Of a DNA stretch of 64,000 bases, positions 3,958 through 54,472 are shown in pieces; position 1 is the stretch's first letter, and every line of letters starts with the position of its first letter. The DNA is taken from the NCBI RefSeq assembly GCF_030253575.1, contig NC_080560.1:12314001-12378000 (forward strand). Direction: 5' to 3'. Under the pieces are notes generated by a model. It did not search any database, was not told the DNA's origin, and saw only the letters and a program-made list of their open reading frames with translations. The DNA comes from Rhododendron vialii. Lineage: Eukaryota > Streptophyta > Magnoliopsida > Ericales > Ericaceae. A program made the position numbers and the translations under genes.

Positions 3958-4487
3958 AAGGGGCGGAGTCAAGATTTCTTGATAGTGTGGTCAATTAGTT
4001 ACAACATAAAAAAATTTAAAACTTTCTTTTCATTTCTTTTTCATAAGTTTGAAATAAACCATAAGATTGGTGTATGTCAAGTCAATGCACAAGTTAAAAG
4101 AGTAACTAAAAAGTCAAATAAGCAAAACAGTATTGATGGGCATTGGTTCAATTTTCTTTAGTGAGAGCAATCCTGAGTTGCAAAGGGCAATGACGAGTAA
4201 TTTCTGCCAAACCTTTGGGCAAGAACATTCACTTTGTTTGGTTTAGATTTTAGAAAGTTATTTTTGAGAGTTGGAGTGGTAATGAGTGGAGAGAGATAGA
4301 GAGAAAGATTTATTGAAAACTGTGCCGAGAGTTGAGAGTTACTCTCAAAAAGTCCATCCAAGCAAAGTGATTAGAGTTTAATATACCTGGGGCAAGTTTC
4401 TCAAATTCCCCTAAAATATTACACTTGTCCAATGGGTAATTGCCAAGTCAGTGACCCCACTTGACCCTATATACCTCCGCCCATGAT
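3958..4487. mobile_element. Non-autonomous hAT element inserted in UGT copy 1
   Basis: The ends read AAGGGGCGGAG and CTCCGCCCATGAT, matching the common plant hAT terminal motif (C)AGGGGCGGAGCC. The flanks repeat CGGTTGA (3951-3957 and 4488-4494). The eighth base differs, consistent with an 8-bp hAT duplication carrying one later mutation. A nested segment at 4234-4320 belongs to the dispersed GTTTGGTTTA repeat seen elsewhere in the window. No transposase is encoded. Confidence 0.8.
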
Positions 4488-5516
4488 CGGTTGAGATGGC
4501 CAAGCAACTCGTCGGCCGAGACCGTCGGCTTTCCATCACGGTCCTCCTAATGAAAAAATCATTCGATAAATCCAAGGTTAGCTCATCCACACAATCGGTA
4601 CTACTCGCCGCAGAGCAGGATCGGTTAAAGTTCGTACACCTCCCTCACGACGAGACGGCGGTGGCGGAGCTCCAAGCCAAGTCCCGCGGCAACTTCTTGT
4701 TAGAGTACATCAAAATGAACAAGCAGCACGTGAGGGATCACGTGGCGAAGATGGTGTCCGCCGAGTCGACGCGGATCGCAGGGTTGGTCGTGGACCTGTT
4801 TTGCACCCCGATGATGGACGTGGCGGCCGAGTTCGGACTCCCGTCTTACGTTTTCTTCACCTCCAACGCCGCGGTCCTTGGCCTCATGTTCCATTTGGAG
4901 GCCCTCAGCCGGGACATTACTGAGTTCAAGGACTCGGATACTGAGTTGGAAATCCAAGGTTTCGTGAACCCGGTCCCAGCTAAGGTGTTGCCTTCTATGT
5001 TAGTGGACAAGCAAAGTGGGTCCGCCATCTTCATTAATATTGCCAAGAGACTGAGAGAAAGCAATGGCATTATCGTGAACACGTTTGCGAAGATGGAATC
5101 CAATGCGGTCAGGTCACTTGCGGAGGACAGTGACGTCCCACCAGTGTACCCTGTGGGACCCGTGATCCACCTCGTTAAAAACGAAAACGAGGAGGAAGCG
5201 ATGAAGATCATGAGGTGGTTGGATGATCAGCCACCGTCGTCAGTGGTTTTCTTGTGCTTCGGGAGCATGGGTAGTTTCGAAGAGGATCAGGTCAGTACAT
5301 AAATCCTCGGTGGTTTGGTTTTTAAGTTTTGAGAATTTTTTTTGATGTAATGATTGGAAAAAGATAAAAAAAAATTATTGAGAATAATGCAGAGAATAAA
5401 AAATATCTAAAAGCTTCAAAAAGAACAAAATTGTCAATAAGGCCCATTTATTTGAAAGCAATTAATCTGGAGTCGTAAAGTTAATCTATATTTTTCTGTA
5501 GAAAAGACTTTGAAAC

Positions 5517-5650
5517 AAGTGGAGTAGAATATAATTGGTGTCTTTTATATTCACATGTACATGGTAAGAGTTCGATTTTCGTAAGTATCCATCCCCCTTC
5601 CAAGATCTCTTAAGATAAAATAGATTAGGTTTAACGAATGATTTAAAAAA
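5517..5650 (+). mobile_element. SINE (family B) in the intron of UGT copy 1
   Basis: It starts AAGTGGAGTAG, contains a box B-like GAGTTCGATTTTC near 5568 and ends in an A-run. An exact 15-bp target duplication AAAAGACTTTGAAAC flanks it (5502-5516 and 5651-5665). A second copy with the same start and the same 3' part is at 57114-57250. It sits wholly in the intron, so it need not affect the mRNA. Confidence 0.85.
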
Positions 5651-5734
5651 AAAAGACTTTGAAACCACTTGCATTATCTTTTGCTGTTTTGTGAATCTTC
5701 TCCTCTTGTTCCGCCCTTCCACACTTGTATGTTT

Positions 5735-5845
5735 TGTTTGGTTTAATTTTTAAGAAAAAAAAATTATGAAAATAGTAAGAATAATAAATGGAGAGAGATA
5801 AAGAGAAAAATAATTGAAAATAAGAAGAATCTTTTGAAAACGTAA
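5735..5845. repeat. Dispersed GTTTGGTTTA repeat
   Basis: A GTTTGGTTTAATTTTTAAG start is followed by A-rich DNA and ATGGAGAGAGATAAAGAGA. Related copies occur at about 4234-4320, 8205-8405 (opposite strand) and 20880-20990. Boundaries are not sharp and the class is unknown. Confidence 0.55.
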
Positions 5846-6595
5846 AACAAACAAGGCAGTAGTCCGTAGAACAGGGGAGGAGGTTAGAGCACAAAGTACT
5901 TCACTTTTCGAAATACACTTTTTAAAAACTAAAAACTGTTTCAAATTGCTGTTATATATTAACGAGGATCTTTACATTCATTGCAGTTGAAGGAGATAGC
6001 ACAAGCCCTAGAGCGAAGTGGCCACCGGTTCTTGTGGTCAGTGCGGAAGACTCCACAAAAGGGAAAAACCGAGCTTCCAGGCAAGTACCAAGACCTCAAT
6101 CAAGTGCTACCGGAAGGGTTCATGGAACGTACGATGAAAATTGGGAAAGTGATTGGGTGGGCTCCACAGGTGGCGATACTCTTTCACAAGGCGGTGGGAG
6201 GGTTTGTGTCGCACTGTGGGTGGAACTCGACATTAGAGAGCTTGTGGTGCAGAGTGCCAATGGCTACGTGGCCGATGTATGCTGAACAACAAGTGAACGC
6301 ATTCGAGTTGGTGAGGGAATTAGGGCTGGCCGTCGAGATAAAGTTGGACTACAAGAAGGATTTTGGGTCAGACAATACCAAGGTTATGTTAGTGACAGCG
6401 GAGGAGATAGAGAATGGGATAAGGAAATTGATGGAGGGCAGGAATGAATGTGGGGAAGTTATAAAGCAGAGGGTGAAGAAGATGAGCGAGAAGAGCAAGA
6501 TTGCTGTGGTTGAAGGAGGGTCGTCCTATAATTCTATAGGACTATTGATCGAGGATGTCATGAACAACATGCATATGTACACATTCTGTGAGTGA

Positions 6596-10796: not shown

Positions 10797-11486
10797 TAAA
10801 ACTCGCAGCTCGAGTTTCGCGCACAAGGTAAGGTTTAATTGATGGGGGCAAGAAAGCATTTGTTTTCCTTTAGTACTAGCTGTAATTGTTTTTTTAATTA
10901 GTACTTTGAAACAGTGGAAAGCCATGTGCTCAAAACAATGGGAAGCATTCTTTAAGCTTAATTATAACCCAGGCACACCCTACCCCTTCAAGATTACGAT
11001 TTTGTACCACTACTCAACTAAATAGTACTAACGAAACTGAACTAGGGAAACGTTGGACTGCTACCAGCAAAGCCATGACTTCACCTTCCAATAAATTACT
11101 CCTACTGATTTCTTGTTCTGCAATTCCCATCACAGAAAAACTTATTTCCGGAGGCTTCGTAAACTAAATTTTATAGTGCCCAATATTAAACGTTTAAAGG
11201 TGTTTTGGACGATCCGGATATTAAAAAAACTCTCCTAGTTAAGAGTTATTTTAAAATCTAGATCATTGATTGTTAAGACGGACAGATAATATTGTGCGTT
11301 ACAACAAATAACTTATTTACGGAAGAGTCGTGAATATTTTATTCTCTTCCCATGCCATTACCTTAAGTTTTCTTCAATTTTTAAACCAACTTGCATACTT
11401 CCCCTGTATTAATAAGACCTGTCATCATCTCAATATACACAACCTTATCACTAGTAACAACAACCGGAAAAGTAATTGACTGAGAA
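10797..11486 (+). promoter_or_regulatory. 5' flank of UGT copy 2
   Basis: It holds a copy of the upstream module of UGT copy 1 (11040-11150 against 3463-3570). No other gene is seen. Confidence 0.55.
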
Positions 11487-13125
11487 ATGAAGACAGCAGC
11501 AGCGACGGCGGAGCTGGTGTTCATCCCTTTCCCGGCGACGGGCCACCTTGTGTCCACGGTAGAGATGGCGAAACAGCTTGTCCGCCGAGACCACCGGCTT
11601 TCAATCACTGTCCTTATTATCGAAATGCCGTTTGACAAATCCAAGGCCAGCTCCTCCACCCAATCGCAACTCCTTGCGGCAGCCGCGGAGGAGCGGTTGA
11701 AGTTCGTCTACCTCCCTCAAGACGAGGCTGCGCTGGCGGGGCTCGACCCTGGTAACTTCACCGGAATCATCGAAATGAACAAGCAACACGCGAGGGATCA
11801 CGTCACAAAGATGGTCTCTACCGGGTCGACTCGGATCGCCGGGTTCGTCATCGACTTGTTGTGCACCGCGATGATGGACGTGGCGGCCGAGCTCGGACTC
11901 CCGTCCTACATTTTCTCCACCTCCAATGCCGCGGTTCTCGGCCTCCTGTTTCACTTAGAGACCCTATCACGGGAACCCAACCGGGATATTACCGAGTTGA
12001 AGGACTCGGACGTTGAGTTGGCAGTCCCGGGTTTCGTGAACCCAGTCCCGGCGAAGGTGTTGCCGTCTGTGTTACTGGAAAAGGAAAGTGTCTTCATCAA
12101 CATTGCCAAGAGGATGAGAGAAAGTAAGGGCATTATGGTGAACACGTTCGCAGAGCTGGAATCCAATGCGGTCAGGTCGCTCGCGGAAGACGATGAGGTC
12201 CCGCCGGTGTACAGTGTGGGACCCGTGATCCACCTCGTTAAGGACAAAGACGAGGAAGCGATGGAGATCATGAGGTGGTTGGATAATCAGCCTCCGTCAT
12301 CAGTTGTATTCTTGTGTTTCGGGAGCATGGGTAGCTTCGAAGGAGATCAGGTTAGTAGTACATATATATACGGAGTAGTTCAATCCAATGCTCACATCCA
12401 ATTAAACACACAGCCCTAAGTTTGAGGTTACAACTAATTATATTCCACTTAATTTTTCAACTGTCATAAAAATCTAGAAGTGTATGAGAATTTCTGCTAT
12501 TAAGTAGTATCTACTTAATTCATTGCAGCTGAGGCAGATAGCGCAGGCCTTAGAGCAAAGTGGCCACCGGTTCTTGTGGTCAGTGCGGCAGCCTCCGCCA
12601 AAGGGTAAAAGAGAGATTCCAGGGGAGTACAGAGACTTGAATCGCGTGCTACCAGAAGGGTTTCTAGAACGTACAACGGAGATTGGGAAAGTGATTGGGT
12701 GGGCCCCGCAGGTGGCGGTGCTGACCCACACTGCAGTGAGAGGGTTCGTGTCGCACTGTGGGTAGAATTCGATATTGGAGAGTTTATGGTGCAGAGTGCC
12801 GGTGGCCACGTGGCCGATGTATGCCGAACAACAACTGAATGCATTCCAGTTGGTAAAGGAATTGGGGCTGGCTGTGGAAATAAAGTTGGATTACAATAAG
12901 GATTTTAGGCAAAATAGTACCGAGGTTATGTTAGTGACAGCTGAGGAAATAGAAATTGGGATAAAAAAACTGATGGAAAGTGGGAATGAGTGTGGGGAAA
13001 AAATAAAGCAAAGGGTGAAGGAGTTAAGCGAAAAGAGCAAGATTGCTGCGGTTGAAGGAGGCTCATCGTATCGTTCCATCGGACTATTAATCGAGGAGTT
13101 CATGAAAAACATACTCATCAGTTGA
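11487..13125 (+). pseudogene. UDP-glycosyltransferase (UGT71-like), copy 2, one nonsense codon in the PSPG box
   Basis: Exon 1 is 11487-12350 (288 codons, phase 0), the intron 12351-12528 has GT and AG ends, and exon 2 is 12529-13125, 486 codons in total, the normal length of a UGT. The catalytic His20 is in ATGHLVS. The acceptor-side region (VIDLLCTAMMDVAAELGLPS) and the C-terminal UDP-sugar domain follow. The PSPG box starts WAPQVAVL, but codon 367 (12763-12765) is TAG where copy 1 has TGG, at box position 22 (HCG-W-NS), a residue that lines the donor site. Position 14 is Arg instead of Gly. Downstream the frame is open to a normal stop. The intron position is identical to copy 1. Truncation removes about 120 residues, so no activity is expected unless the TAG is a sequence error. 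Confidence 0.88.
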
Positions 13126-15908: not shown

Positions 15909-15920
15909 CATTGATTGACA

Positions 15921-16671
15921 GCTAGGGGTATTTTCACTATTAAGTCTGCTTGGGAAGCTATTCGGAAGAAATTCTCTATTCAGCCTCGGTTTAAGGTTAT
16001 TTGGGGTAGTCGTAATGTCCCTAGATGGTCTTTTATACTTTGGTTGGCAGCTCTTCACAGACTGAGTACTAATGACAGATTGAGAAACTGGGGTATGGCT
16101 GTGGATGCTCTTTGCTGCCACTGCCAGGATGAGGATGAATCACATCATCACTTATTCTTTGATTGTTCATATTCTACACGTGTTTGGCAGTACTTGGTGT
16201 CAAAGAATAGAGTGGCTAGCATTCCTAATAATATGGGAGATGTCCTTGATTGGTTGCAGGGCAATGTACGTATCTTGGGATAGTTTCAGATTTATTAGTT
16301 TGAAGTGTACATTGGCAGCTGTTGTTTATGGGCTTTGGCAAGAAAGAAACTCTTGTATTTTCTGTGCAAAGATGAAGGATCATACTTAGGTGGCAACATA
16401 TATAGCCAATGGGATTCGTGTTGTCCTGAACTCCAGAAGGAATGTAAAACAATCCTCGCAAAATCGGAGTATTTGTGAGATATGGGGCCTGCCTCATAAG
16501 ATCATGCAATCTGTATAGTTTTTTTACAGTGTGTTTTTTGATTTTGTTTTCTTGTTTAGAGCTGTTAAGTATGACTGTCTATATTGTTGTTTCTTGTTAG
16601 GGGATTCTATCCCTTGTACTTTGTTTTTTGGTTTGAGCCTAATAAAATTTTGTGCACTTATCAAAAAAAAT
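15921..16671 (+). mobile_element. 5'-truncated L1-type LINE with exact target duplication
   Basis: The coding remnant is the C-terminal zinc-binding region of a plant LINE reverse transcriptase. It has a WGSRNVPRWSFILWLA-type segment, the Cys/His cluster CCHCQDEDESHHHLFFDC, then a frameshifted tail ending VVYGLWQERNS. The 3' end has AATAAAATTTTG and an A-run. A 12-bp duplication CATTGATTGACA flanks it exactly (15909-15920 and 16672-16683). The 751-bp insert is a typical dead-on-arrival copy made by target-primed reverse transcription. Confidence 0.92.
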
Positions 16672-18694: not shown

Positions 18695-20041
18695 TATTTA
18701 ACAAAGTGACTTCAATTGTGTGTGTGTACCATGTGTCCCTTAGGCTTGTTTATTTGCCCGGATTGGAGCATAAGATTGGACTATAGCTCAGTCACATTAA
18801 TGTAATTCAAATAATTGGTTCTATTGTATTAATTTTTTTATGTACTGAGGTGAGCTTAGGACCTTTGCACGTTAAATATTCTCGGGGTAAATTTCAAATA
18901 TAGTCCCTATAGTTTGTCAATTTCAACCCTTAGTCGACTAAATTACGTACCCTCTTGCTGACGATATTATTGGAGTACTGACGAAACTCACAGGCAAAAT
19001 TAATAGTTCCCTCCCACAGGGATGAATTGAAGCTGAGACAAAATGCAAACTTTATACACAAACTAGTTTGCATTTTGTTTCAATTCCGTCCCTCTAGGAG
19101 CGAGATGTTGATTTTGCCCATGAGTTTGGTTCTAATTAATAACACCATCAGCGAGAGGGACCGAAGTGATTATGAGATGTAACATAAACTATAGGGTCAC
19201 GTACAATTAAATGGCACAATAAATACTAGAGAGACGAAATTGAGATTTCACAAATTTTACCCATGTTCTTACCATCTTCACCTTGTCAGCTAAACTATCT
19301 CCCAAGAATTCGCAATTTAGGCCGCCACCAATCTGAGATGGAAGGACCTTAGAGTTGGGAACACCAGGGATTTGAACCACCACCAACCCTCCCTCAACAA
19401 GCTCTTGAGCCCTAGCTTTTAGAAAGGCATCCATGTCTGCCTTAAACTGAGCAAAGTAAGCCTTGGTGACCTCTTTCTCGTTCCCTGCATAATAAATCTT
19501 ACCCTTGTTCCATGCTGGTGAGCCTTTGTCCATAACTTGTGGAGGAACCTTGGAGAGCCAGTGAAGAGCGTAAGACGAGTGTGCGATGTGGAGAGAGGCT
19601 TCCGGAAGGAACTGACAATGGAAAGAACCCGGCACGCCGACGGCAAAGTACGGTCGGTTCAGAGGCAAGGTCTTGAAGAGGGTGTTGAAATCGTTGTCGA
19701 CCTGATCGTTGAAGGAGACGTGGAATTCCGGGGTGTTTTTTTGGAGATTGGTTTCTAGAGTGGATTGGTGCTTAAGCATTACGGCTTCTATAATGTTTTT
19801 CATGGCAAAGAATGTGTTAGGTCCGGTAGAACATCCAAAGTCAGCTATTCGAAATGTTTTTGGTAAGTTCATGTCAAGCTTCTCGGGAATTGTTTCGAAA
19901 ATTACACCTTTTGAACCTTCTACTACTCCTCTCTGCATTAAGTTCCAAGTATGATCACTTGTGCATTAGTACAGCATGAACAATGTAGACTATGTGCACA
20001 AAGAACAAAACCAAAACAATGAATAAACCAAGAAAAGGAAG

Positions 20042-27700: not shown

Positions 27701-30700
27701 GAGTTCGACTTTCCTATGGTATGATGTCTAAATGTGCGGTAGTTACTGGTGTCATCACCTTTATGATCGTGTCTTTGTTATGAGATTACATGCAAACAAT
27801 TAGCAGTTAGTGTTAATAGTCTCACTACCTGTACAATGATATAACTTTCATAAATAACGAGGAATACATCAGGGTTTTAGTTTTGCATTCTCTTGATACT
27901 GTAGGTATGATTAATCTGTTTACCTTTAGTACATTCATTTCGACTCTGTTTCTCTCTCTTTCCATCTATCCTCTGACCCCTCACTTGTAATGCAGGCAGC
28001 TTTAGCTACTATCCTGCTTATTATTTATAATTGTTCTGACCAAGTTCTCAGCACTCGGGAAAGAAGACATGCCAAATCCAGGGAAGTAGCAGCGAGAAGT
28101 GTGAGGCAGAAAACACAGGCACATGAGAGGTGGAAATCTGCGAAAAATGCTGCCATGAAGCATGTTAGAGGCTTCCATAGTCAGTTATCTCGTACATTTT
28201 CTCGTAGAAAAACACTGACATCTATTGAGGAACTCAGGATTTTCAGTCAAACTGACATTGAGATAGCTGATGATCTATGCCCGACTACGCATGCATTTAT
28301 TTTGAGTTCCTCAGAGCAGTCATCTGCTGCAATAGGAGGAAAGAAGAAAGAACCCAGTGACCTAATGACGGGGATACATGCAACTGAAGATGGTCCTGAT
28401 ATTTGCAATGATACCACTATTCAGGTAGAAGATAAAAATGTACAAAGGCCATTGCCAAAGAAAAAACAATTACATTCTGATAGTCAGATTTTCAAATATG
28501 CATATGGTCAACTAGAGATAGAAAAAGCTATGCAGCAACAAAACCTTACCTTCTCAGGAGTTATTTCAATGGCTACCAATCCTGAGATTAGGAAAAGGCC
28601 CATAATTGAGGTTTCCTTTAGAGACCTTACTCTTGCTCTGAAAGGGAACAACAAACATCTTTTAAGGTGTGTTACAGGGAAAATCGTGCCTGGCCGCATT
28701 GCTGCTGTCATGGGTCCTTCTGGGGCTGGGAAAACTACATTCCTTTCTGCTTTGGTGGGAAAAACAGTTGGATGCAAGATGACTGGTTCAATTCTGATAA
28801 ATGGAAAGAATGAATCAATCCGCTCGTACAGAAAAATTATTGGTTTTGTGCCACAGGATGATATTGTGCATGGAAATTTGACTGTGGAAGAGAATCTCTG
28901 GTTCAGTGCTAGGTGCAGGTATGTCGAAATGAGTTATATGGCAGATTCTAACAGCAATTTACTTTAACTGGTTCAGTGCTAGGTGCATTTTGTCATTTCA
29001 ACGAAATGTTATAGATCGAGATTGCAATCCTCATTGTAGCTAGGCTAATTCTACCACTATGACAATTGATACATGGACTCAACTTTAAGCATTATACCCA
29101 TCAACCAACCACTTTTTAAGATACAGATGGATTGGGACTCAGCAAAAAAAGGAGTAATTGCTTTATATTCTAGTCTATCCAGTTGGACAGAAAGGGTGTT
29201 TTCCCTAAAATTCAGTCAAAAAAGATACTTAATTTAAACCACTTTTTATAGAAGTTATTTAACACACATAATAATTGGCGAATTTGAAGTGTTGGACAGA
29301 CATGACATATCCCGCACCTTTTCTAGGTGTTAAGTCCTCCGGAGTACTGGATTAGTTTGAAGAGTCTAAGAAACATAGTCCTTTGGATATGCTTCTATCT
29401 GGCCCCTCATAAGTGTGTCCTTAAAAGGTGATTTTGAAAGATTATTTTTAAAATTGCCGAGCAAAAAAAAAAAAAAAAAAATTATTTTTAAAATTCATGC
29501 ACTGGTGTTATTTAATCACTCAGCTTCTCAATTTATCCATTTTCTAACCACTTTCACAACTATATTCGTACTTCTTCAATCTCTGCATGTGCATGTAAAT
29601 AATTATGGTATCTCATCAAACCTTCCTTAGAACCGGTTGGATGATGATTGATATAAGTTTCTAAATGTTCTTGGTAGATGTTCCTAATCTTACTTATCAT
29701 TCCATATGTTCCACCAAACCCATAGTTCGTCTGCAACTTAGATTTATTTGCTTTAGTAATTTTCAACTACGTTGTTCTTGCACTGAATTTCTGCTATTAT
29801 CCTTGCTTGTCTTCCTTTTCTATGCCATGCTCTAGGACCATAATATCTTGACATCTTGTCATACATATCCGTAGCACAATTACTTCTGATTGCTCTTCTT
29901 TTACCCATTTATTATGGAAGATTATCTGCAAACTTGCCGAAGGCGGATAAGGTTCTCATTGTTGAAAGAGTCATCGAGGAGTTGGGGTTGCAAGCAGTGC
30001 GGGATTCCTTGGTTGGAACAGTAGAGAAGCGAGGAATATCAGGAGGCCAAAGGAAGCGAGTAAATGTTGGCCTGGAATTGGTAATGGAACCATCACTTCT
30101 AATCTTAGATGAACCCACCTCGGGTTTGGATAGTTCGTCTTCCCTGCTACTTCTAAGAGCGCTTCGACGTGAAGCTCTTGTAGGGGTCAATATCTGCATG
30201 GTTGTCCACCAACCTAGGTAATGATATCTTACAGTAACTATATATATGGGACACTGTTCATTCTCTTTCTCTATACTTCTAGTTGTGTGACGAGACATAT
30301 GACTGGGACGGTTTCGACATTTCAATTTGAAAGCTCTTCGTCTGTGAGGATAACTTTGTTGAGAGCATATCAGCATGTTCTACTGAGAGATTCAAGAAAT
30401 TATTTCATGCATTAAGCTCACCATCTAGCCTCTACGGGGCCGCTATTTTAATAGTAAAAATTTCTGGGAGGCTGGGAGCAACCACTTTGTGCATGTATTG
30501 ACTAAGGTTAGGTGTACTGCAGTCCTCCCGTGGCAATACCCTCATCTAGGGATTACATAGGTACTGCTGTTATTGTTGTTAAGCTCACCATCCTAGTCAT
30601 TTGTGTCTTTGAATGCACATAAACTTCAGTAAGAAAGCATTTTTAAATCGTTTCATTCATAGCAACAGGACTGATATCATACAACAATCCGGATTGCGTG

Positions 30701-33700
30701 ATCTTTTAATTTTGGGCACTCGATAGGATGTTAGCAGGCAAGTAAGGTAGGTTTGGTTAATTCCCATAAGCTCAAACCATAAATTTTTTTGAAAAGCATA
30801 GGAGAAAAACCACTTTAGTTACGATCAAGTTCTAAACCCATGTTAATATTTCCACTACCAAACATGAAGGAAATAAGGAGTTCTACAATTACTACTTATG
30901 AGAATATAAACCAAACCTAACAGAACCGAGACTTTTTCTCTAGTGAGCTCTGCCAAGGGCAACTTATGAGAATATAATTATGCTATAAGTATGCGGGCAT
31001 TGAATTGCCAATGGCATGCATGGGAAGTGTTCAAAGTTCAAGACCTTTTTTAACTATGGGGCAAGATCGAATTACACATTTACAGAACACATGGCAGCAC
31101 GCCATGAACATTAGTCAAACAAGCAATTCACTGTGGACTAGCTAGGGAAGGTCCCACTGTCATTGAGCATGACAAAGAAGGACCACATAATTTTCATTTC
31201 ATATGATACAAAACTGTCTCTTGTATGTATAGCATAGACACCACAGAAGATCACCTAGATTATGTAAAAATGCTGAGATGGTAAACCTTGCACAACAAGA
31301 AGGTTTAAAAGTCCAACAACATAAATTAACAGAGTTCGAATTCAATTTCAATTTCGTCAAAAATATTTTGGTATTACGTTACTCTAGCTGGTCATGGAAT
31401 TAATTCTTTATCTTACTGGGTACTTGTTTCAGCTACACCTTGTTCAATATGTTTGATGATTTAATACTTCTAGCCAAAGGTGGCCTTACCGTGTATCATG
31501 GACCCGTGAAGAGAGTTGAAGAGTATTTTGCAGGCCTTGGAATCAATGTACCGGAGCGTGTGAATCCTCCCGACCATTTTATCGATGTATTGGAGGATAT
31601 AGTTAAGCCGTCTACAAGTTCAAGCATAAGTTCCAGAGAGCTTCCCGTACAATGGATGCTTCATAATGGTTATGTGGTGCCCCCAGATATGCAGCAAAAT
31701 TCAGCTGGAATTGCCATCCTCTCTTCACGAGTAACTCTACATAACCAAGTAGATAGTGATGCTACACTTGAGGAACAATCTTTTGCTAGAGAAGTATGGC
31801 AGGATATGAGACGTAATGTGGAGCTTCAGCGGGATATCATACGCCACAATTTCTTGAGGTCTAGGGACTTGTCCAATCGGAGAACCCCTGGTGTTCTTCT
31901 GCAGTACAAGTACTTTATTGGGAGGTAAGTATTCAAGAATCATTTTTATTATGCATCCATTTAAAACTTTTTTTAGGTTTCTTCGACGAGTGGAAATGAG
32001 AATGTTGAGATGGATGTGCGGTAAGACTTTGCAAGATAGAATTAGAAACGAAAACCTTCCTGTGATAGTAGGGGACCTAGCGGTAGCACCGATAGAAGAT
32101 ATGATGAGAGAGAATAGATTAAGGTGGTTTGGACATGTCTATCGTAGATCGGTTGCTACAGTAGTTACAAGGAGTAATAGGGTTAGGCAGATGGTACTAA
32201 CAAGGGTAGGGATAACCAAATTTGACTTTGAAGGCCGTAGTTTGAACAGACCTAGGTTTCTTGGATATCTTGGACCACGATGTCCTTTATAGAACTCAAT
32301 TGAGACAACAGATTCATGTAACTGTGTCCTTTATAGAACTCAATTGAGACTACAGATTCATGTAACCGACCCCAAGTGATACTTAAGGCTCAGTTTGGTT
32401 TGGTTTGGTTTTGGTTTATTCGATCAATGATATCATGTATACAAGTATTTCCTTTGTTGAGGAAATATGGGAGATTGTTTACTGATTCCCTGAGAAATAA
32501 TATAGCTGATTCTTTTGTGTGACTCTTCCCGAAGAGTATACATGCAAGAATGTAGCCTTAGTCATTATATAGAGCCAGTATATAAGAAAATATGACAGGG
32601 ATTTTCCCCTACCCCAATTGAATGGGATTTAAGGCTCGGTTTGGTTGATTATGACGGGGTTAATAAAGAGTTTTGGATGGCTGGTGTTTGGCATTTGTAA
32701 AAACTATGACCAGTCAAATTCCCTTTTTCTGTAATAGCAAAAAGTAGGTGTGAGTGTACCATTATGTACGGTACATTTTGTTTTGATTATATCGAATTGA
32801 GATATCGGTAGGAATGGAGATGTGTTTTGTTTGATATTTGAGTCTTTATGTTTAATTGGTTTCTGTTTTTTGACTTTCTGTGTGCCAAAAAAAATTGCAG
32901 GGTTGTCAAGCAGCGTTTACGAGAAGCTAGAATCCTTGCGGTGGATTTTCTGATATTGTTACTTGCCGGGGCCTGTTTAGGATCCCTGATTAAAGCAACA
33001 GATGCGACATTTGGAGCACCCGTTTATACCTATACCATTATTGCCGTCTGTAAGTAGCAAAATCTGGCCTCCCTGTTATAAAAATGCACAAGGCTGGTTT
33101 TTAATGCTCTGGCGGATAAAAAGATTCACAAGTATGGAAAAACCTTACTTGAATCTTGCCGCCTCTGTATTTATACCAAGGTTTTGAATACCGTACCGGC
33201 CAAAGTACCGTTTTAGTAAACTGGTATGGTACGTATCGGTACCGATATGTTACCGGGTACCGTTTCGGATTAATCGTTATTAATATTTATTCATCAAAAA
33301 TCATATTTTACTTATAAAATTTACTTTGCTTGTCATCACCCAACACTATCTTATGAACCAAAAAATCATAGACTACCGAATCGACAAATTAAATGTTCAA
33401 ATCTTAACCAAATACGGTAAAAAAATAACAGGAGAAGGGTTAAATGGGATTGAAGTAAACAGGAGTATTCTGGGGTTTGGTGTGTTGCATTACGCACAAT
33501 CTATTCTCCAAGGCTCAGTTCACTTGTCAAGAAATTGGTACAAGAAAAATGTTCTTGAGAAAATTTTAGTGAAGCGAAGTAAAGGAAAAGAAATGTCATT
33601 TTCCTAAATGTGTTCAAGTGATAAAGAAAGTTGTTGGAAAGTTAAAAAAGGTAATAGCTTAATTGTTTAGGAAACTAGTATAGAAACAAGATTCTTGCAA

Positions 33701-36586
33701 AATCTTGTGTTTTTTGCAGGATGAGTTTTGTGGGAAAACTAGTACTAATGGAAAAGTTATAGATGTGGATCCCACAACTTTCTTGCTAACTCCCCCAAAA
33801 ATCCAGAAAAGTCAGATATTCCCGTACTTTCTTTTCCTTGCAACTAAAGGGGGCCTAAAGGGGTTTCACTGTGCAATAACTTCACTACACGCCTTTTTGC
33901 TCAAATTCCTGAACGACATAAACAGGAAAATATAATAGGTGGGCATTTTCATCATTTGGGTTCTCAATTCTTCACCTTCCTTGTTGGTTTGATTGTCGCC
34001 AATCATGAATGATTGAATCTCTATCTTCTCTTCCCCTCTATTTTTGTTAGATTTCTTTCATTTCCTTCAATGACCGGTACATACTGCTGGTAAACACGGG
34101 AAAGACTGAAATTCTCCGAAAATATGTCCGGTACAACCAGTAAAAGCTGGAAACTTGGCCGGAATGAAACCAAAGATGGTTGTACAGTTTTTATTCTAAA
34201 ACAGGATGTACCTGCCGGCACTAGAACGAGATTAACAACCTTAACCCATACTATTTGTTTGGATTGTGAAATGAATAACATATCTTTCTAGCACAAGTGT
34301 AAATTGCTACAATAATAATGATTTCCGTGTTGGGAACAGTGGTAGTCTTAATGTTAATGTAACTAGTATTATGTATTGTCTCTGTCTGATTGCACAAGCT
34401 TACTTCCTTATTGCGTCTTATTTATTTATGTTTTGATCATGGCTTTAATTTCAGCTCTTCTGTGTACAATTTCGGCTTTAAGATCATTTTCTCTTGACAA
34501 GTTACAATATTGGAGAGAGAGTGCTTCTGGCATTAGCAGCTTGGCTCATTTTCTTTCCAAGGACACAATAGACCATCTTAATACAGTGATTAAGCCTGCG
34601 GTGTTTCTCTCAATGTTCTATTCCTTCACCAACCCTAGATCTTCTTTCTCAGATAATTACGTTGTACTTTTATGTCTGGTGTATTGTGTTACTGGGATCG
34701 GCTACACACTGTCCATCTTCCTTGAACCTGGCCCATCCCAATTGGTTAGCAATATATTTCAAAGCTTTTCTAACTTCTAAGTGGGATACAATATGTTTAT
34801 GATTTCTGCTGATCACATACTTCCGCTTTGTACAGTGTGCTGTGCTTCTTCCTGTGGTTTTGACTCTGATCTCAACTCAAACGGGAGATGGTACGTTTGT
34901 AAAGAACCTAGCAAACTTGTGCTACCCAAAATGGGCTTTGGAAGCATTCGTAGTTGCAAATGCCGAAAGGTAGAACACAATTACTCTTTATCTTAGTGGG
35001 CCAAACCTGGAAAGTCTGGATATTGAAACAAAATTTTAAAGCAAGAAAACCTAGATAAGAAATCCAAAAACTGTAGCATTGTATACTCTTTGCTACTATG
35101 AACTGGACATGGCAGCTTGGGAGGAATACAAATTCTTGGTTAATTGTGCTTTGGGCGTTGCATTGCAACTGGAGAACTAGTTTCCCAGTCCCTACTGTAG
35201 AATGGTAACAGAAATCGCTCAATAACACTGTAGCAGTGGAGCTTGTTTCATAGACATGATGTTAGAACATCAAGCACAACTGCAGGTGCAAACAAAGTGC
35301 ACTCTATTGCATGGCCTTGGGTAGAACTCATCTTGGGTGCATTAATGCATATACTGCACATTATTTGTGTACACAAATGTCACTGCAAGGGTTATGGTGA
35401 GAATTGCTCCGTTCTAGAAAATGTTGGGCACTGTTCAATAATGAGAAACAAGGGTGTGATTTGGTGTAGAGGACATAAATTAATTGCAAAGTTTTTGCTT
35501 GCAAATAAGTAGATAGGCAACTCCTTTGAGGCGTTGGATGCTAAGAGACAAGAGTAGCATCAACACTCTGCTGGAGGCGACGTACCGGTGTCGGACAAGG
35601 ACACGCGCCGGACACGCTCCTGACACGTGTCCGACACTTTTCTTGGAGTGTCCTGTTTTTTTTCCAATATTTGTGGTCCGACACTCTTCCAACACTTTAC
35701 AGACACTTTCAGGGCACTTTAGGGACACTTCGGGGGTAAAAATGCAATTATAAGAACATTTAAAATGGATCAAATACTTTGATCCGACACTTCTCCCGGA
35801 GTGTCCTGTTTTTTTTTTTCAATATTTGCGGTCCGACTCTCTTCCAACACTTTACAGACACTTTTAGGGCACTTTAGGGACACTTCAGGGGTAAAAATGC
35901 TATTATAAGAACGTTTAAAATGGATCAAAGTGTACACTTTAGGGACACTCTTTGTGTTTGAACGTGTTCTCTCTCTCTTTCTCTCTCTGTGATTAGATTT
36001 AGGGCCATCTAGTTATGATGTTATTAAACTTTTATCTTATTTGAATGTTATTATTATTATTATTTTTTGATATATATCATTTTCTGAAAATTTGCGTGTT
36101 GGGGTGTCCATGTCGTGTCGTGCCCGTGCTACATAGCACCCATGTTCTCATCTTTAACATGGAGATCCATTTAGGGAATTGATTTTCGCACTCTCCAAAT
36201 CTCTAACCGCTCTCCAAAAGGGGGTGCAAAAAGCTCTCCCCTTTTGGAGTGCCGTTAGTAATTTGGGGAGTGCGAAAATCACTGCCCGTCATTATGTTTA
36301 ATGACTAGGACTAGGTCTAGCATTATTGACCTATTGGTATATCTGGCAGAATTAACCTGTGTTGGTGTTCTGGTTTTTAAGTTTTGTATGTATTCAGTAT
36401 ATCATACTAATCATCTTTCATTTCAGGTACTCCGGAGTATGGATTATAACTCGTTGTGGTTTGCTCATGAAAATGGGCTATAGCCTTGCTGGTTGGGGCC
36501 GCTGTATATCCTTCCTCATCCTGGCAGGCGTTGTCACTCGTGCTATAGCTTTTGTTGGCATGCTCACCTTCAAAAGGAAACACTGA
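24794..36586 (+). CDS. ABC transporter G family, ABCG24/ABCG28-like (complete, 14 exons)
   Basis: Exons: 24794-25017, 25836-25912, 26422-26685, 26830-26893, 26994-27140, 27320-27354, 27503-27576, 27996-28918, 29921-30217, 31433-31924, 32901-33049, 34455-34744, 34836-34969, 36427-36586. All introns are GT-AG and every phase joins, giving 1109 residues. A signal peptide (residues 1-30) is followed by an extracellular Cys-rich region (to about 290). A first membrane helix ([11 protein letters not shown], about 296-306) leads to a long basic linker. The ATPase has Walker [10 protein letters not shown] (535-543), signature SGGQ (643-646), Walker B/D-loop LDEPTSGLD (665-673) and H-loop HQPS. The C-terminal membrane domain ends FKRKH. 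Length, Cys-rich N-terminus and the [18 protein letters not shown] segment fit the plant ABCG24/ABCG28 clade, half-size exporters linked in the family to lipidic or polyamine cargo. No lesion is seen; long introns 8-11 and 13 hold repeats. Confidence 0.95.
31960..32240 (+). mobile_element. RTE-type LINE 3' fragment in ABCG intron 10
   Basis: The translation contains [23 protein letters not shown] and [11 protein letters not shown], the conserved C-terminal end of plant RTE-like reverse transcriptases. No catalytic domain remains. It begins about 45 bp after the exon 10 donor. Confidence 0.8.
32281..32368. repeat. 44-bp tandem duplication in ABCG intron 10
   Basis: Two copies of a unit starting TGTCCTTTATAGAACTC at 32281 and 32325, differing at one visible base. 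It follows directly on the RTE fragment. Confidence 0.85.
33160..34300. other. ABCG intron 11 repeat-like DNA
   Basis: From about 33175 there are dense GTACCG/CGGTACC words (CCGTACCGGCC, TACCGGGTACCG), typical of a non-autonomous DNA transposon end, but I cannot place both termini. No exon is hidden here that the ABCG protein needs. Confidence 0.4.
35570..36135. repeat. TGTCCGACAC-type repeat with internal duplication, ABCG intron 13
   Basis: The block CGGAGTGTCCTG, TCCGACWCTCTTCCAACAC, TTTACAGACACTTT, GGGCACTTTAGGGACAC, AAAATGGATCAAA occurs twice (about 35630-35770 and 35790-35935). The segment is bounded by GTACCGGTGTCGGAC on the left and GTCGTGTCGTGCCCGTG on the right. It is likely a non-autonomous transposon with a partly duplicated interior. 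Confidence 0.6.
36181..36290. repeat. 110-bp foldback element, ABCG intron 13
   Basis: The arms begin GATTTTCGCACTCTCCAAAT and end ATTTGGGGAGTGCGAAAATC (one mismatch). An inner pair, CTCTCCAAAAGGGG and CCCCTTTTGGAG, extends the hairpin nearly to the centre. It lies 137 bp upstream of the last exon, so it would be a strong stem in the pre-mRNA. Confidence 0.75.
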
Positions 36587-43640: not shown

Positions 43641-44594
43641 GTGTGAATTCTTCATTTAGGGATGCCTTTGTCTTTTTCAATGTGTGAATTCTTCATTTGA
43701 ATGTGAATTATTGTGAATTATGTCTTTTTCGAATGTGAATTCTGAATTTAGGGTGTGAATTGTGTAAGTTAGAGGGTGTGAATTTTTGCAAATTAGTGTA
43801 AATTTTTGAGATGTGAATTCTAAAAAAATGTGTGCATTCTTAGTGTGTGAATTCTGTAAAGGACTGAATTTTGAGGTGTGAATTCTTGAAAAGAGATGTG
43901 AATTTTGCAAGAATTGATAATGAAAACAACATGGAAATTTGAGATGGAGTACTTTGAATTCTGGGGGTGATTTTTTTTATTTCATTCAGATTAAGTGTTT
44001 GTTTGTTTGTGAATTATTTTAGAAGGGTATGAATTCTAAATTTAGGGTTGTGCATTGTGTAATTTGGATGAGTATGAATTCTGCAAAGGGCGTGAATTTC
44101 TAGATGTTGTAAAGGGGTGTGAATTTTGAAAAGGGATGTGAATTGTGCAAAAAAATGTGGATTCTGGGAAGAAGTGTACTGAGAAAAATTGTGAATTCTG
44201 CAAATTAGTGTGAATTTTGGAGGTTGTGAATTCTTGTAAAGGGGTGTGAATTTTATAACGGATGTGAATTTTGGGAGGTGTAAATTTTTGGGGGTGTGAA
44301 TTCTACAACGAATGTGAATTCTATGGGGTGTGAATTCTGCAAAATGATGTGAATTTCGAAGGTGTGAATTCTTGCGAAGGGGTGTGAATTCTGCAAATGA
44401 CTGTGAATTCTGGGGTATGAATAGTGCAGATGAGGTGTGAATTTTGCAAAAAAATATGTGAATTTTAAGGGTGTGAATTCCGTAAAGGTGTGAATTTTAC
44501 AAAGAGGTGTGAATTCTTGAGGGTGTGAATTCTGGGAGATGTGAATTCTGGGAAATGTGAATTATTGGGGGTGTGAATTCTGGGAGGTGTGAAA
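43641..44594. repeat. TGTGAATT(C/T) minisatellite, about 0.95 kb
   Basis: The word GTGAATT recurs roughly 36 times by eye, spaced about 15-35 bp, in a loose unit like GGGGTGTGAATTCTGCAAA. Many units contain GAATTC. Units differ in length and spacing, so it is an old, variable array. No open frame survives on either strand. Confidence 0.9.
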
Positions 44595-48612: not shown

Positions 48613-49019
48613 CTTTATTTTCTTCCTTCCTTTCCTATTCTAGTAGATTACCTTCGTATTCTTTCAATTCTTTGCAACCTTATTTAACAGATTAGTCTTT
48701 ATAGTTTGGTAGGTTTTTGTCAATGTTTTTCGGTCAAGTGTCAAGTATTTCGTGAACCATATTGGGTTTTGATTCTTAATAAAATGTCAATTATTATTTT
48801 ATGAGTTATTTGATGCTTTAAATTTTTAATTTTATGAGTTTATATTTTGTGAATAAGTGTTTGGATGCCAATTGGATAAAACCGGAACCGAACTAAAACC
48901 AGACCGATTTAATGGTTTCGTTCCGGTTAGGTTCCACGCATATATTGGTTAGGTTCTATTCCTAATTTTCTAGAACCGTTTGAAATGATCCGATTACTGG
49001 TTTTCTGAAGAACCGGACA
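48613..49019. repeat. Dispersed AACCGG-rich repeat, copy hosting the hAT insertion
   Basis: This is the second copy of the repeat at 45010-45275. It is cut at ACCGGACA by the hAT element and resumes at 54473 with AATCCGGACCATGTACACC. Confidence 0.8.
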
Positions 49020-49664
49020 TAGGGATGGCATTCGGGGCAAACGGGGCGGATATTGGGTATTCCGTACCCGATACCCGAAACCGAAGTACCACCCATATCC
49101 GCCCCGATAACCGAACGGGGAGGGAATTGGGTAACCATAACCGAACCGAACCGATATCGGGTAGTAACCGAACCGAACGGATAACCGAAATCAAGCAAAA
49201 ATACTGATCATTTTAATGAAGAAAAAAAACTAATCCTACCAAGTTTATAGTGAATAACACCTTTAAATCAAGCAAAAATAACATTGTAAACAAATAATTG
49301 ACCTTTTCTTGACAAAAAACAAAAGACTAATACACCCTTGAACCATTTTATATCCCAGCATTCTCAATAGATAATAGCTACCAACATTCACAACAAAACA
49401 CCCACCACATGCTGCCAATCAGTTCACAAAACAACTACAAAGCAAAGTAAAACTAATACAAACTTCAATCAGTCCAGTGATTTCAGTCACTACATGCACA
49501 CCAATCAGTCCAGCCAAAGTTGAAATAATACAAAGTTCAGTCACCACATCGCACCACATCACAAATCTTGAAATAATACAAAGTTCCATTTGCAGAATTA
49601 AGAGATGGAAAAATAGAATCAATTTTGATTTCCATCTTGAAATGCCAACTTCCATTTGCTGAGT

Positions 49665-52065
49665 TCATATCTGTTAAATTGAAAGGCAAAAAAAGTGAAT
49701 TAATATCAACAAAAAAAGTTCAATTAATATGAGCAATATGTAATGTTAAAACCACGAGAGACGTAAGAGAAATGCCAATTACCTCACGAGTCACGCACGA
49801 ATCCCCCGTTTCCGCATCATCTAATATAGTGGCGTACCCTGATGTTGATTCACCTAACAAATATAAAGTAAAAAATTCATAAGTACTAGTTTTAGTTTAC
49901 TAAAGTAGAAAAATGCAAGATACTAAATTCATTACCTTTCATTTCAGCAGCCCACAACCAATTTTGAGCACACATCAAGGCTTCCATCGTATCGGGATGA
50001 AGTCTACTACGATGTGGACTCACCAACCTACCACTCGTGCTAAATGTGGACTCAGAAGAAACCGTCGATACCGGAATAGCTAACAGATCCCTAGCCATGG
50101 CTTGCAAAATTGGATACTTAGGTTGATGTGATTTCCACCAATTCAAGACATCAAATCCCACGGATTTTGGCAAGACATCTTCCGACAAATAATGATCCAA
50201 CTCCAATTTTGCAGTATCGATTGTCCTACTTCTCTTCGACTCCCTAAGCATGTAGACATCATACTTTGATAGTGACTCTTCATCAATGGAACTTGATTGG
50301 GAAGAAGAGTCACCAATACCCTCCATCATTGAACTAGGACATTGATACTCCTTAAGCAATTTATAACAAAGTGCACGAACTTTCTCAACTTCTTCTTTAT
50401 AACTTGTTGGAAACAATAATTTAAAGTAGAATTCCAACACGTTGATCTTATACCTAGGATCCAACATAGCAGAAACCCCCACAACACCATTTACCACAGA
50501 CCAATACTTGTCAAATTTTTCCACCATTCTTTTGGCCATTTCCCTAATCATCTGATTCTCAAAACGGAGCCAATCTCTTAATTCAAGTCTAATCTCACAT
50601 ATATTTGGAAAGCATTGATTAGTAGTGGGGTATTTAGTTCCAGAAAACAACTCTGTCACCTTAAAAAAAAATTTTAGCTTCTGACAAACATCTTTAGCAA
50701 ATCCCCACTCACGTTCACTCGGTAAGGAATTATATTGAGCATCCCGTTTGCTTAAGCGAATGAACACATCCTTATAAAGTAGGGCTGTTTGAAGCATCAA
50801 GAAAGTTGAATTCCACCTAGTTGCACAATCAAGTCCTAATTTCTTAGTACTAGTCACATTCAATTGGCGGACTGTTTCTTCAAATTTTTCGTCTCTTTTT
50901 TGTGATGCTGTCCAATAAGCTACGCTGTCCCGAATTTTCTCAATATCCACCTTGATAACATCCAACCCATCTTTAACAATAAGATTAAGAATGTGCGCAC
51001 AACAACGCATATGAAATAAATCCCCACCCAACATGAGCGACGCACTATCAAGTTTGTCCCACAAAAGATCAATCATGGCATCATTGGTAGAGCAATTATC
51101 AACCGTTATACTTGAAATCTTCCTATCAATGTTCCAATCCATCAAACAATTCAACAATTGGTCACATAGAACTTCTTTTGTATGTGGACATGGCACATAT
51201 TTGAACCTAACATGCAACATTTATATTTAGTTAAAAATAGAAAAATGAAGATTTACATTGCATAAAGGAATAAATATAGCGATATAAGTTAGAAATACCT
51301 CAAAATGCGACTTTGCAACGTCCAAGAATCATCAATAAAGTGTGCTGTGACAGCCATGAAGCCTTTCTTTTGATTACTTGAAGTCCACATGTCCGTTGTG
51401 ATACCTAATCTACTTGCATTACTCACCACCAAACTCATTGTCTTCCCCCTTTGGTACTCATAAATCTTAAATATTTCAGCTTTTATTGTGTTCCTACATG
51501 GCACCTTAAATAAAAGTTGAAGAGCATTTGAATACCTCTTAAATCCAACATGGTCCACAATTGAAAGGGGATACTCATGCATGATTATGGCACTTGCAAG
51601 TTCTTTCCGTGCTGTCTCATGATCAAAACTATATGAAGTTAGTAGTGGAGGACGGTCTTTGTTCATGAAATTATTTGTTAGAACTTGTTGCCTCATGTTA
51701 TCCTTCTTTTGGTGTTTCCTTAAATAGTGTTCTTTCAAATGTGAAGTTCCATTCCTTGTTTCTCCAGAAATTTTTGTTCCACAATACTTGCAAATGGCCT
51801 TGAAAATCCCGTTAATTTTGACCTTATTATAGTGAGCCCAATAAGGACTCCTTAACCTTTTTCCACCATCATCATCATCATCGGATTTTCCTGATACAAC
51901 TTCAACTTCATCAGTAGGATTGTCACTTGGATGAGTAGGATTGTCACTTGCATGGTTATCAAGAGGGGATGATGATGGTACGGGGCTACCACTTGGTTGT
52001 GATGGTCCAGAACCATCAACCGGATTTGTTGACTAAGCACTCGAACCGATAGGTGATTCAGACAT
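49665..52065 (-). CDS. hAT transposase (RICESLEEPER-like), 4 exons, nonsense codon at position 11
   Basis: Exons on the minus strand: 52065-51299, 51206-49936, 49853-49783, 49670-49665. All introns are GT-AG and the phases join (2, 1, 0), giving 705 codons with the stop. An acidic linker (five consecutive Asp) precedes a BED zinc finger (ICKYCGTK then HLKEHYLRKH). The catalytic core includes ITTDMW, ITVDNCSTND and RCCAHILNLIV. The C-terminal dimerisation domain has WWKSHQPKYPILQAMARDLL and PVSTVSSESTFSTSGR. The only visible lesion is TAG at codon 11 (52035-52033). The next in-frame Met is after the BED finger, so full-length protein needs readthrough, another start or a sequence error. A domesticated DAYSLEEPER-type gene is unlikely because TIRs and target duplication are fresh. 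Confidence 0.88.
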
Positions 52066-53610
52066 AATTAATCTAATCCTAAGAAAACACCAGCAGATTT
52101 AGACATGATTCAAGCTACAATTACAGATTTAAGCTACAATTATAATTCAAGCTACAATCAAATCACAAACTAGTTAAGCAGACTAGAGGGGCTATGCCGC
52201 CGCCTCGTTCTCAACACAATTCTATGGGGTTATGCCACCGCCACGTTATATAACTAAAAGCAATTAAAGGCAATTGATGCTCAATTTAGCTTCGTTACAC
52301 CTTAAGTCGAATTGGTGGCTCAGTTAGAGGTATCCGCTAAATTGAGCTCAATGTACGCAAAGGGAGCCATAATCAAACAAAGGGAGCACAAACAATGACT
52401 ATTCATTCTTTTATAAACTTAAGAAATCAAACTCCTACTACTATAGAAGCACAAACAATGACTATTCGTAAGAGAGAAAAAAATTATCTTGATTCATCAG
52501 AAGTTGAACAGGTAAGCGAATTTTGAGTCTTGAGCTGCGTATCGACGGGCGGTGAATATATGGTCCAAACAAGGGGTTACTTTTCGAGCATAAACTTAAT
52601 AAAAAATACTCACTATCCAATATAACGAGAACATGCATTCAAAAAAAATATAACGACAACAAAAAATATAATGAGAACAAAAAATGAATGCACTAGTATT
52701 TCTGTAGTTTTACTCGATCATTTATTACATTTTTATTTGTATAAATGGTAGCATTGTATGCGTTGGCTTTGTGGTACTACAACTATATAAGCTTAATTTT
52801 GATGGACAGTTCTTCAACCCTCATTAGCTGCAAGTTTAGAAAAAACTTTTTTTTCCACTTGAACTAGACATAGACCATTCAGGCTATAACCCAAGATCTT
52901 ACCACTTGAACTAGACATAGATCTTCTTATGTTTTGGGTAGTTCTATGTATATTACTTCTTTTTTGATTCACACACACACACAAAAACAAAACAAAAAAC
53001 CGCGATAATTTCAAGAGGGTCACGTGACCTCCTATACCAGCACCTTAGCTAAATATGCCCCTGCAATATACTTATACAGCCATACATAGAATGGCAGCCA
53101 CAAAACTATTCAGTTCCCAACCATCAACATAATGCACCGAAATAATCAGATGTGACCCTCTGGCTTTGACCCCTTCCTCTTCAATTCCATTTCCTCTTTG
53201 TCTCTAACAATAGGGATTGATTTTGGCACACTACTTTCGGAACGCCGACAGTAAACTTTGTAGTGCCAAAATCAAAAGCCTTAAGTTTATCATTATCCAA
53301 TGACCAACATGATGCACCAGGCCGGGTGAGGTCACTTTCATCTAAAGATTTCTCTCTCAACTCAAGACCCAAAATTAGCTCCAAGTTCCTCATATTTATG
53401 GAAATTAAGGGCTTAAAAATCTCAACCATTTGAGCCCATGGCCACATTTCAATCCCTTTAGCATTCTATATATTTCCTATTTTTATACAAACTTGCGGAA
53501 AGCTTAGCCAAAGCTTAGCCAAATCAGGATGTCAAGTTTAGTCGAAAATTAATGCCCACATGCAGCAAATTCAAGCACACAGATTTGAAGCAGATTATAT
53601 TTTCGGGCAC

Positions 53611-53613
<3 letters not shown>

Positions 53614-53655
<42 letters not shown>

Positions 53656-53990
53656 ACCAATGATAACAGTCGACTGAGTCAACTGGGCTCCGAACAGTGG
53701 CGACTGCGGAGTGCGGACTACCAGACTACTGCAATTGATTTCCTGAAAAAATCGAGAGATGAGAGACAAGATCGAGAGAGAGACAGAGAGACAGAGAGAG
53801 ACAGAGAGAGATCTCACGATCGAGTTACAGTCGACTGAGTCAATTGATCGTCGTAGCCTGCAAAAATAGAGTTACAGAGACATGAGAGTGTGCAATAGAG
53901 ATTAGAGAGTCTAGATTGAGAGAGAGACTAAGAGAGATTGAGAGAGAGACTAAGAGAGATCGAGCGAGAGAGAGAGATCTCACCGAGTAG
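53614..53990. repeat. (GA)n microsatellite and degenerate GA-rich tract in the hAT element
   Basis: A pure GA run lies at 53614-53652, with irregular GAGAGA-rich DNA at about 53755-53975. Confidence 0.9.
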
Positions 53991-54472
53991 TCGCTGCTTT
54001 GGAGCTGTGGAGTGGAGTCTGGTCTGGAAAGGTTCGAGAGGAATCAGGAGTGGCCGAGTGAATAGAGATTAGAGAGAGAGAGTCCAGATTGAGGGAGAGA
54101 CTAAGAGAGATCGAGATTCGAACAGAGCAGTCACTGCTGCTCTGGAGCTCTGGAGGTGGAGGCGACTCTGGACTCTGGAGTGGCCACTGCCCACTGGCCA
54201 AGACTGCCGAGTGAAATGAAAACCCTAAGTGGGTGTGGGAAGTGTGTATATATATATACAAGGGTATTTTTGTAAATACCCAGTTTCGGTTCGGTTCGGG
54301 GAACGGTTCGGTTATTAACTCCACCGTAACCGAACCGAACCCGTTCGGTTATCTTACAACCTCCACCATATCCGCACCAACGGGGAATTTTTCGGTTATG
54401 GTTCGGGGAAAAAAAACGGTTTCGGTTCGGGTACCCATCGGTTCGGCCGAGATTGCCATCCCTAACCGGACA

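Follow-up and report, generated by a model that had tools for sequence, protein, structure and literature searches.

The known system closest to the element reported here is Hatvine-6, a grapevine hAT family whose copies share the transposase and the terminal inverted repeats (TIRs) and vary in the rest, the variable part often matching genic and non-genic host DNA; its table gives 17 copies with potentially functional open reading frames, 13-bp TIRs and a 9-bp target site duplication (TSD) (PMC2528002). In maize, Ac carries multiple transposase-bound hexamers within 200 bp of each end, and the Ds2 and Ds-l4 elements carry filler DNA, in some cases of genic origin, a feature described as rare among hATs (PMC3260210). 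Pack-TYPE elements, including Pack-hAT, are non-autonomous by definition, and an element with a transposase match is classed as autonomous (PMC8903248). A 2026 review holds that an undiscovered mechanism may exist for the capture of unlinked genes by DNA transposons (PMC13317346). Our subject is a stretch of 64,000 nucleotides of Rhododendron vialii (contig NC_080560.1, positions 12,314,001 to 12,378,000 of the forward strand), called the window below and the source of all bare coordinates, in which positions 49020-54464 form an Ac-type hAT transposon with clustered subterminal repeats. We consider it probable that this is a hAT copy with a stop codon of its own, that sister copies with an unbroken transposase exist, and that blocks of DNA in the leader, 5' of the transposase start codon, were captured in gap repair.

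The ends and the leader of the element are laid out as follows.

49020-49030, plus strand: left 11-bp TIR, TAGGGATGGCA, matching the right TIR at 11 of 11 positions
54454-54464, minus strand: right 11-bp TIR, TGCCATCCCTA, matching the left TIR at 11 of 11 positions
49012-49019 and 54465-54472, no strand: 8-bp TSD, ACCGGACA, matching at 8 of 8 positions
49031-49219, no strand: left subterminal repeat region with ACCGAA-type hexamers, 7 in the terminal 200 bp
54265-54453, no strand: subterminal repeat region at the right end, with 8 hexamers within the last 200 bp
52066-54464, minus strand: leader 5' of the start codon, 2399 bp, including the right end of the element
54244-54261, minus strand: TATA-like run, candidate promoter near the right end by motif only

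The first-pass annotation, made from the letters of the window, had described a hAT element with exact 11-bp TIRs and an exact 8-bp duplication, and both match in full. Each TIR string occurs once on the plus strand of the window, and both ends read TAGGGATG, in agreement with [T/C]AGNGNNG, the TIR pattern of plant hATs (PMC6027215). The 8-bp TSD characteristic of hATs is found in every one of the 14 copies of the set described below, that of the window included, and the encoded protein has the BED finger, RNase-H-like core and C-terminal dimerisation domain of the superfamily. The hexamer ACCGAA or its complement TTCGGT occurs 7 times at the left and 8 times at the right within the terminal 200 bp, against means of 0.13 and 0.10 and maxima of 2 and 4 in 5000 mononucleotide shuffles, a clustering that exceeds chance at both ends; the CCGAA core points 8:1 one way at the left end and 10:2 the opposite way at the right. 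Elsewhere in the window there is no credible second copy or fragment (two blastn matches at E 0.29, four tblastn matches at E of at least 0.18). None of seven pattern matches in IMG/VR was confirmed as a relative, and a literature search by TIR string gave no transposon paper, judging by title, among the matches listed. A search by topic gave two papers, neither of them, by title, about hAT families.

The window's own genome (532.6 Mb in 13 contigs, written C1, C4 and so on, with L numbers for fetched stretches) was searched with the left 381 bp of the element. This gave 42 matches with 40 scored of 228 candidates, and copy counts are thus lower bounds. The copy set consists of the window copy and the 13 other top-ranked places from this search (n = 14). 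An exact 8-bp TSD flanks all of them, their ends being refined within 3 bp. Twelve have two exact TIRs, L012 and L021 have one mismatch each, and the transposase gene is present in every one.

It is the leader blocks, which the first-pass annotation does not mention, more than the stop codon, that make these copies interesting. In the window copy, the block and its matches elsewhere are placed as follows.

52523-53552, no strand: leader block common to the window copy and L009, about 1.03 kb, 7 differences in 1029 sites
52572-53465, no strand: part of the block (894 bp) matching C1:2031496-2032339 at 89%
53457-53555, no strand: part of the block matching C9 near 10347659-10347781 at 78%, with a gap

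Sliding identity between the window copy and L009 is 97-100% across about 52.5-53.55 kb, and the block has no blastn match of at least 60 bp in the leaders of the 12 other copies, although both of its flanks align with other copies at 70-98%. It stands where L013 has about 340 bp, and about 316 bp are likewise missing at the L011 block, L013 being taken, by assumption, as the older leader form. Different blocks are found in L010, L011/L012, L015/L017 and L016/L018, in a span of about 490 bp on the L013 scale and with family sequence on both sides. Four pairs of copies that share a block sit at different target sites, and for this reason these copies probably moved after capture; two of these pairs (L015 to L018) have open transposase frames. 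Because they lie 5' of the start codon and may fall in a 5' intron, the blocks need not disturb the transposase. None of the seven frames in the leader matches a Pfam domain up to E 1. The window block also contains a strong hairpin (53211-53281, predicted at -30 kcal/mol with ViennaRNA defaults), which could have been carried over from the source as a small inverted-repeat element. L020 has a leader insert of about 2.1 kb slightly further out than the other blocks, of which about 118 bp resembles window positions 4232-4349 at 89%.

Five different blocks could be traced to matches elsewhere in the genome, at 85-99% identity. The clearest is that of L010, which matches C4:41693791-41694545 over 755 of 755 bp at 99% (and, secondarily, C4:40143817-40144554 at 92%). 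The former locus lies among frames matching the membrane and ATPase domains of ATP-binding cassette (ABC) transporters, and L010 would thus hold captured coding DNA between its TIRs. Its block reaches past the ABC transporter open frame into a probable intron, so that it was probably copied from DNA. The C1 locus matched by the window block lies beside rather than inside a recognised frame, the one with DUF4220 and DUF594 being about 1.1 kb away, and the C9 match appears in L009 as a 32-bp piece at 97% and a 56-bp piece at 100%. The L011/L012 block has a sole other match, C13:33541308-33542213, at 90%; the L016/L018 block matches two C13 loci 3.7 Mb apart at about 98%; and 456 of the 564 bp of the L015/L017 block match C4:37690643-37691085 at 85%. 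Two blocks, those of window/L009 (C1 and C9) and L016/L018 (two loci on C13), thus join two loci each. Neither exact TIR string occurs in seven matching loci of 2-9.5 kb each (L037-L040, L045, L046 and L050), a set to which the C4 locus at 37.7 Mb does not belong. A transfer from host to element is well supported for the ABC transporter block and likely for the C1 block; for the remaining blocks it is assumed.

The transposase gene has the following parts, with Pfam positions converted to window coordinates by hand.

52065-51299, minus strand: predicted exon 1, predicted start codon at 52065
51206-49936, minus strand: predicted exon 2, rest of the catalytic core and dimerisation domain
49853-49783, minus strand: predicted exon 3
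49670-49665, minus strand: predicted exon 4, one residue and the stop codon
52033-52035, minus strand: TAG stop at codon 11, in the window copy alone among 14
51709-51849, minus strand: BED zinc finger (zf-BED, PF02892), Pfam E 8.1e-07
50345-50644, minus strand: hAT-like_RNase-H stretch (PF14372), Pfam E 1.3e-26
49955-50203, minus strand: C-terminal dimerisation domain (Dimer_Tnp_hAT, PF05699), Pfam E 6.7e-33
51391-51393, minus strand: putative first catalytic Asp codon (TTDMWT), aligned to Hermes
51098-51100, minus strand: putative second catalytic Asp codon (TVDNC), Hermes motif matched by eye
50051-50053, minus strand: putative catalytic Glu codon (SSESTF), aligned to Hermes

The predicted introns measure 92, 82 and 112 nt and are all GT..AG. 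Pfam recovers the BED finger, catalytic core and dimerisation domain that had been placed in frame in a four-exon gene, and codon 11 is, as claimed, the sole premature in-frame stop. The figure of 705 codons given for that gene needs qualifying: the frame is indeed a single open one save for the TAG, and the count includes both the TAG and the final stop, the predicted reading frame being 10 codons, TAG, 693 codons and a terminal stop. A fourth Pfam family listed for the protein (E 0.087) falls under its cut-off and is ascribed to chance. A PDB search listed five sequences. Four are Hermes, an animal element (best E 2.9e-16), and the remaining one, a xylanase with E 0.88, is also a chance match. 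The candidate motifs TTDMWT, TVDNC, TRWNST and SSESTF are all present, and all except TVDNC align to Hermes. We presume that they correspond to numbered Hermes residues and that the two Asp and the Glu are catalytic. The key residues of Hermes are D180, D248, R318, W319 and E572 (PMC6027215).

In 5 of the 14 copies (L014 to L018) an open frame runs from the start codon to the final stop and the three GT..AG introns are kept; the remaining nine have stops, frameshifts or both. At least five copies in this genome thus have an unbroken frame. The first-pass annotation had seen a near-autonomous element that might have intact relatives in the same genome, and this stands; the opposite case, in which all other copies carry further lesions, is not what the genome holds. 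Among the five open copies and the window copy, the ratio of non-synonymous to synonymous divergence (dN/dS) is 0.18-0.29 in the nine of 15 pairs with at least 20 synonymous differences; the other six have at most 8 such differences and ratios of 0.10-0.52, one being undefined. The open copies may be expressed and active. The window copy is most likely unable to produce full-length transposase and reliant on that of other copies, and its codon-11 stop, in an otherwise good copy, is ordinary decay.

Beyond the 14 copies, six places pair a left-end with a right-end match over 0.87-1.01 kb and are probable short non-autonomous derivatives.

C6:16633578-16634460, C1:15945652-15946521 and C13:32257842-32258797: probable short derivatives
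C2:14112480-14113473, C4:42281200-42282119 and C10:17546209-17547218: probable short derivatives

There is also a more distant group of seven stretches, L022 to L028, compared by blastn only and kept outside the 14-copy counts. Identity in their exon 2 is 86-94%, and their leaders diverge strongly. All but L025 contain both TIR strings, and the flanking 8-mers are identical in L022 and L023 and differ by one mismatch in L024, L026/L027 and L028.

How could the blocks have entered the leader? The reading we prefer is that the matching loci supplied the block DNA while an excision gap was being repaired: the repairing end would have jumped to unrelated templates before resuming on the element. 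Overlaps at block borders in blastn are 2 and 9 bp for the window copy, 0 and 1 bp for L010 and 3 bp at the left of L011, with a 5-bp gap at its right; the two sources in L009 overlap by 9 bp, and true identity at the window and L010 borders, judged by eye, is 0 to 5 bp. A wider proposal, which we advance tentatively and would not bet on at even odds, is that the leader is a recurrent capture site in which a self-sufficient element shuffles unlinked host DNA by template switching in gap repair.

Several observations weigh against these readings. In the window block 48 bp have no source match, and in the L016/L018 block gaps of 8, 18 and 15 bp lie at the borders of its pieces. The stretch 52572-52859 partly resembles at least 25 other places at 69-87% (40 scored of 153 candidates), five places match a single piece of the L016/L018 block at 92-98%, another piece of it also matches C8 at 95%, and the L015/L017 block has several matches at neighbouring positions on C4; as judged from these matches, repeats contribute to three of the five blocks. 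Where identity is 85-90%, the matching locus may be a relative of the true source rather than the source itself, and block sharing could reflect gene conversion between copies. Sampling by long left-end matches favours intact copies. As for selection on the transposase, the eight broken copies other than that of the window give dN/dS of 0.17-0.54 against L015, and changes at the tips show no clear constraint in any copy. Constraint probably acted in the shared history of the family and the window copy is probably decaying, the tip counts alone being too few for proof.

That the blocks consist for the most part of other transposable elements nested in the leader, and not of captured host DNA, is the alternative that best survives, and we think it unlikely. 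It would account for the several genome matches of parts of three of the five traced blocks. Against it, the stretches missing relative to L013, if that is the older form, indicate replacement and not insertion only; moreover, the L010 block has no flanking duplication and spans an ABC transporter frame, and two blocks each combine two loci. An improbable second alternative is capture of the Pack-CACTA kind, in which two neighbouring elements lose their facing ends and the hybrid encloses the DNA between them, a model published for another superfamily of TIR transposons (PMC13317346). Template-switching gap repair fits better than such a fusion of neighbours because the blocks are internal to the leader and flanked on either side by family sequence, and because the two-locus blocks join different chromosomes or loci 3.7 Mb apart.

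A different objection concerns the stop codon. The window copy could itself be functional if the TAG were a sequence error, were spliced out, or if translation started elsewhere, and a 3' splice-site candidate ending at 52079, 13 nt 5' of the start codon, does make a 5' intron plausible; no Pfam domain lies ahead of the BED finger, either. We give this very little credence. The codon-11 stop is absent from all 13 other copies, 12 of which retain the MSE start. Beyond the TAG, the first in-frame Met is at codon 124, past the BED finger, so that late initiation would cost the protein this domain. Lastly, the 12 private coding states of the window copy are eight non-synonymous, three synonymous and one nonsense (seven and six, non-synonymous and synonymous, in the open copy L014), which, small as these numbers are, is compatible with no constraint. 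A domesticated, hAT-derived host gene of the SLEEPER kind, whose proteins have the same hAT domains (PMC3499209), is refuted by copy number and ends, namely by exact TIRs and TSD, 14 copies at different sites and a broken frame.

The age of the insertion cannot be read from its ends. Youth had been proposed from the exact TIRs and duplication, and this argument fails: the TSDs are exact throughout the set of 14, even in three copies whose divergence from that of the window, outside 52.3-53.7 kb, is 9-11% (at most 10.6%). Dating by the 38 TIR and TSD positions is too weak, the 95% upper limits being 6-32 million years at mutation rates of 1.3e-8 to 2.5e-9. The nearest relative of the window copy is L009, with 60 differences in 4016 sites, and at 7e-9 per site and year the two would have split about 1 million years ago, as an order of magnitude. 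Closer pairs exist in the family (L016/L018 with 16 differences in 5938 sites, L015/L017 with 50 in 5197).

The rest of the window holds the following.

4487-6592 and 11484-13122: two UDP-glycosyltransferase-like genes or fragments, the Pfam match confined to 5963-6592 and the remainder assigned by resemblance only
15915-16280: zf-RVT frame, probably a retrotransposon remnant
19210-19965: S-adenosylmethionine-dependent carboxyl methyltransferase (Methyltransf_7)
27930-34777: ABC transporter gene, frames with ABC_tran and ABC2_membrane_7
43683-44593: degenerate minisatellite on TGTGAATT

This is a small and tractable set, with similar copies, five blocks at one place, matches at 85-99% and block-sharing pairs at different sites, and it could reveal the way in which cut-and-paste transposons take up unlinked host DNA.

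Among the known systems, the Hermes transposase (PDB 6dww, 8edg) is a remote relative by sequence and shares the BED finger (PMC10368747). Pack-TYPE elements resemble our copies in being TIR transposons with captured host gene pieces, but they are defined by the lack of a functional transposase gene (PMC8903248), whereas here the gene is present in all 14 copies and open in five, that of the window being broken. Because a transposase match means autonomous in that scheme, copies like these would not be counted as Pack-TYPE, and transposase-bearing elements with host DNA are left uncounted as gene-carrying by its pipeline (PMC8903248). The likeness to Ac/Ds of maize extends to 11-bp TIRs, an 8-bp TSD, hexamers in the terminal 200 bp and filler DNA (PMC3260210). 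The Ac/Ds TIR, (C/T)AGGGATGAAA, is identical here at 9 of 11 positions, which indicates a related type and a different family; the hexamers are of the ACCGAA type here and AAACGG in Ac/Ds, and the maize filler is described in Ds elements, which are mobile only with Ac (PMC3260210). Hatvine-6, with its shared transposase and TIRs and its variable, host-matching remainder, shows nearly the same phenomenon, although its 13-bp TIRs and 9-bp TSD differ from the 11 and 8 bp found here (PMC2528002), and the likeness is one of behaviour. The kind of element is thus already known, with Hatvine-6 as its direct precedent, and what the Rhododendron copies may add are traced sources, composite blocks and a link to sister copies with an open frame.

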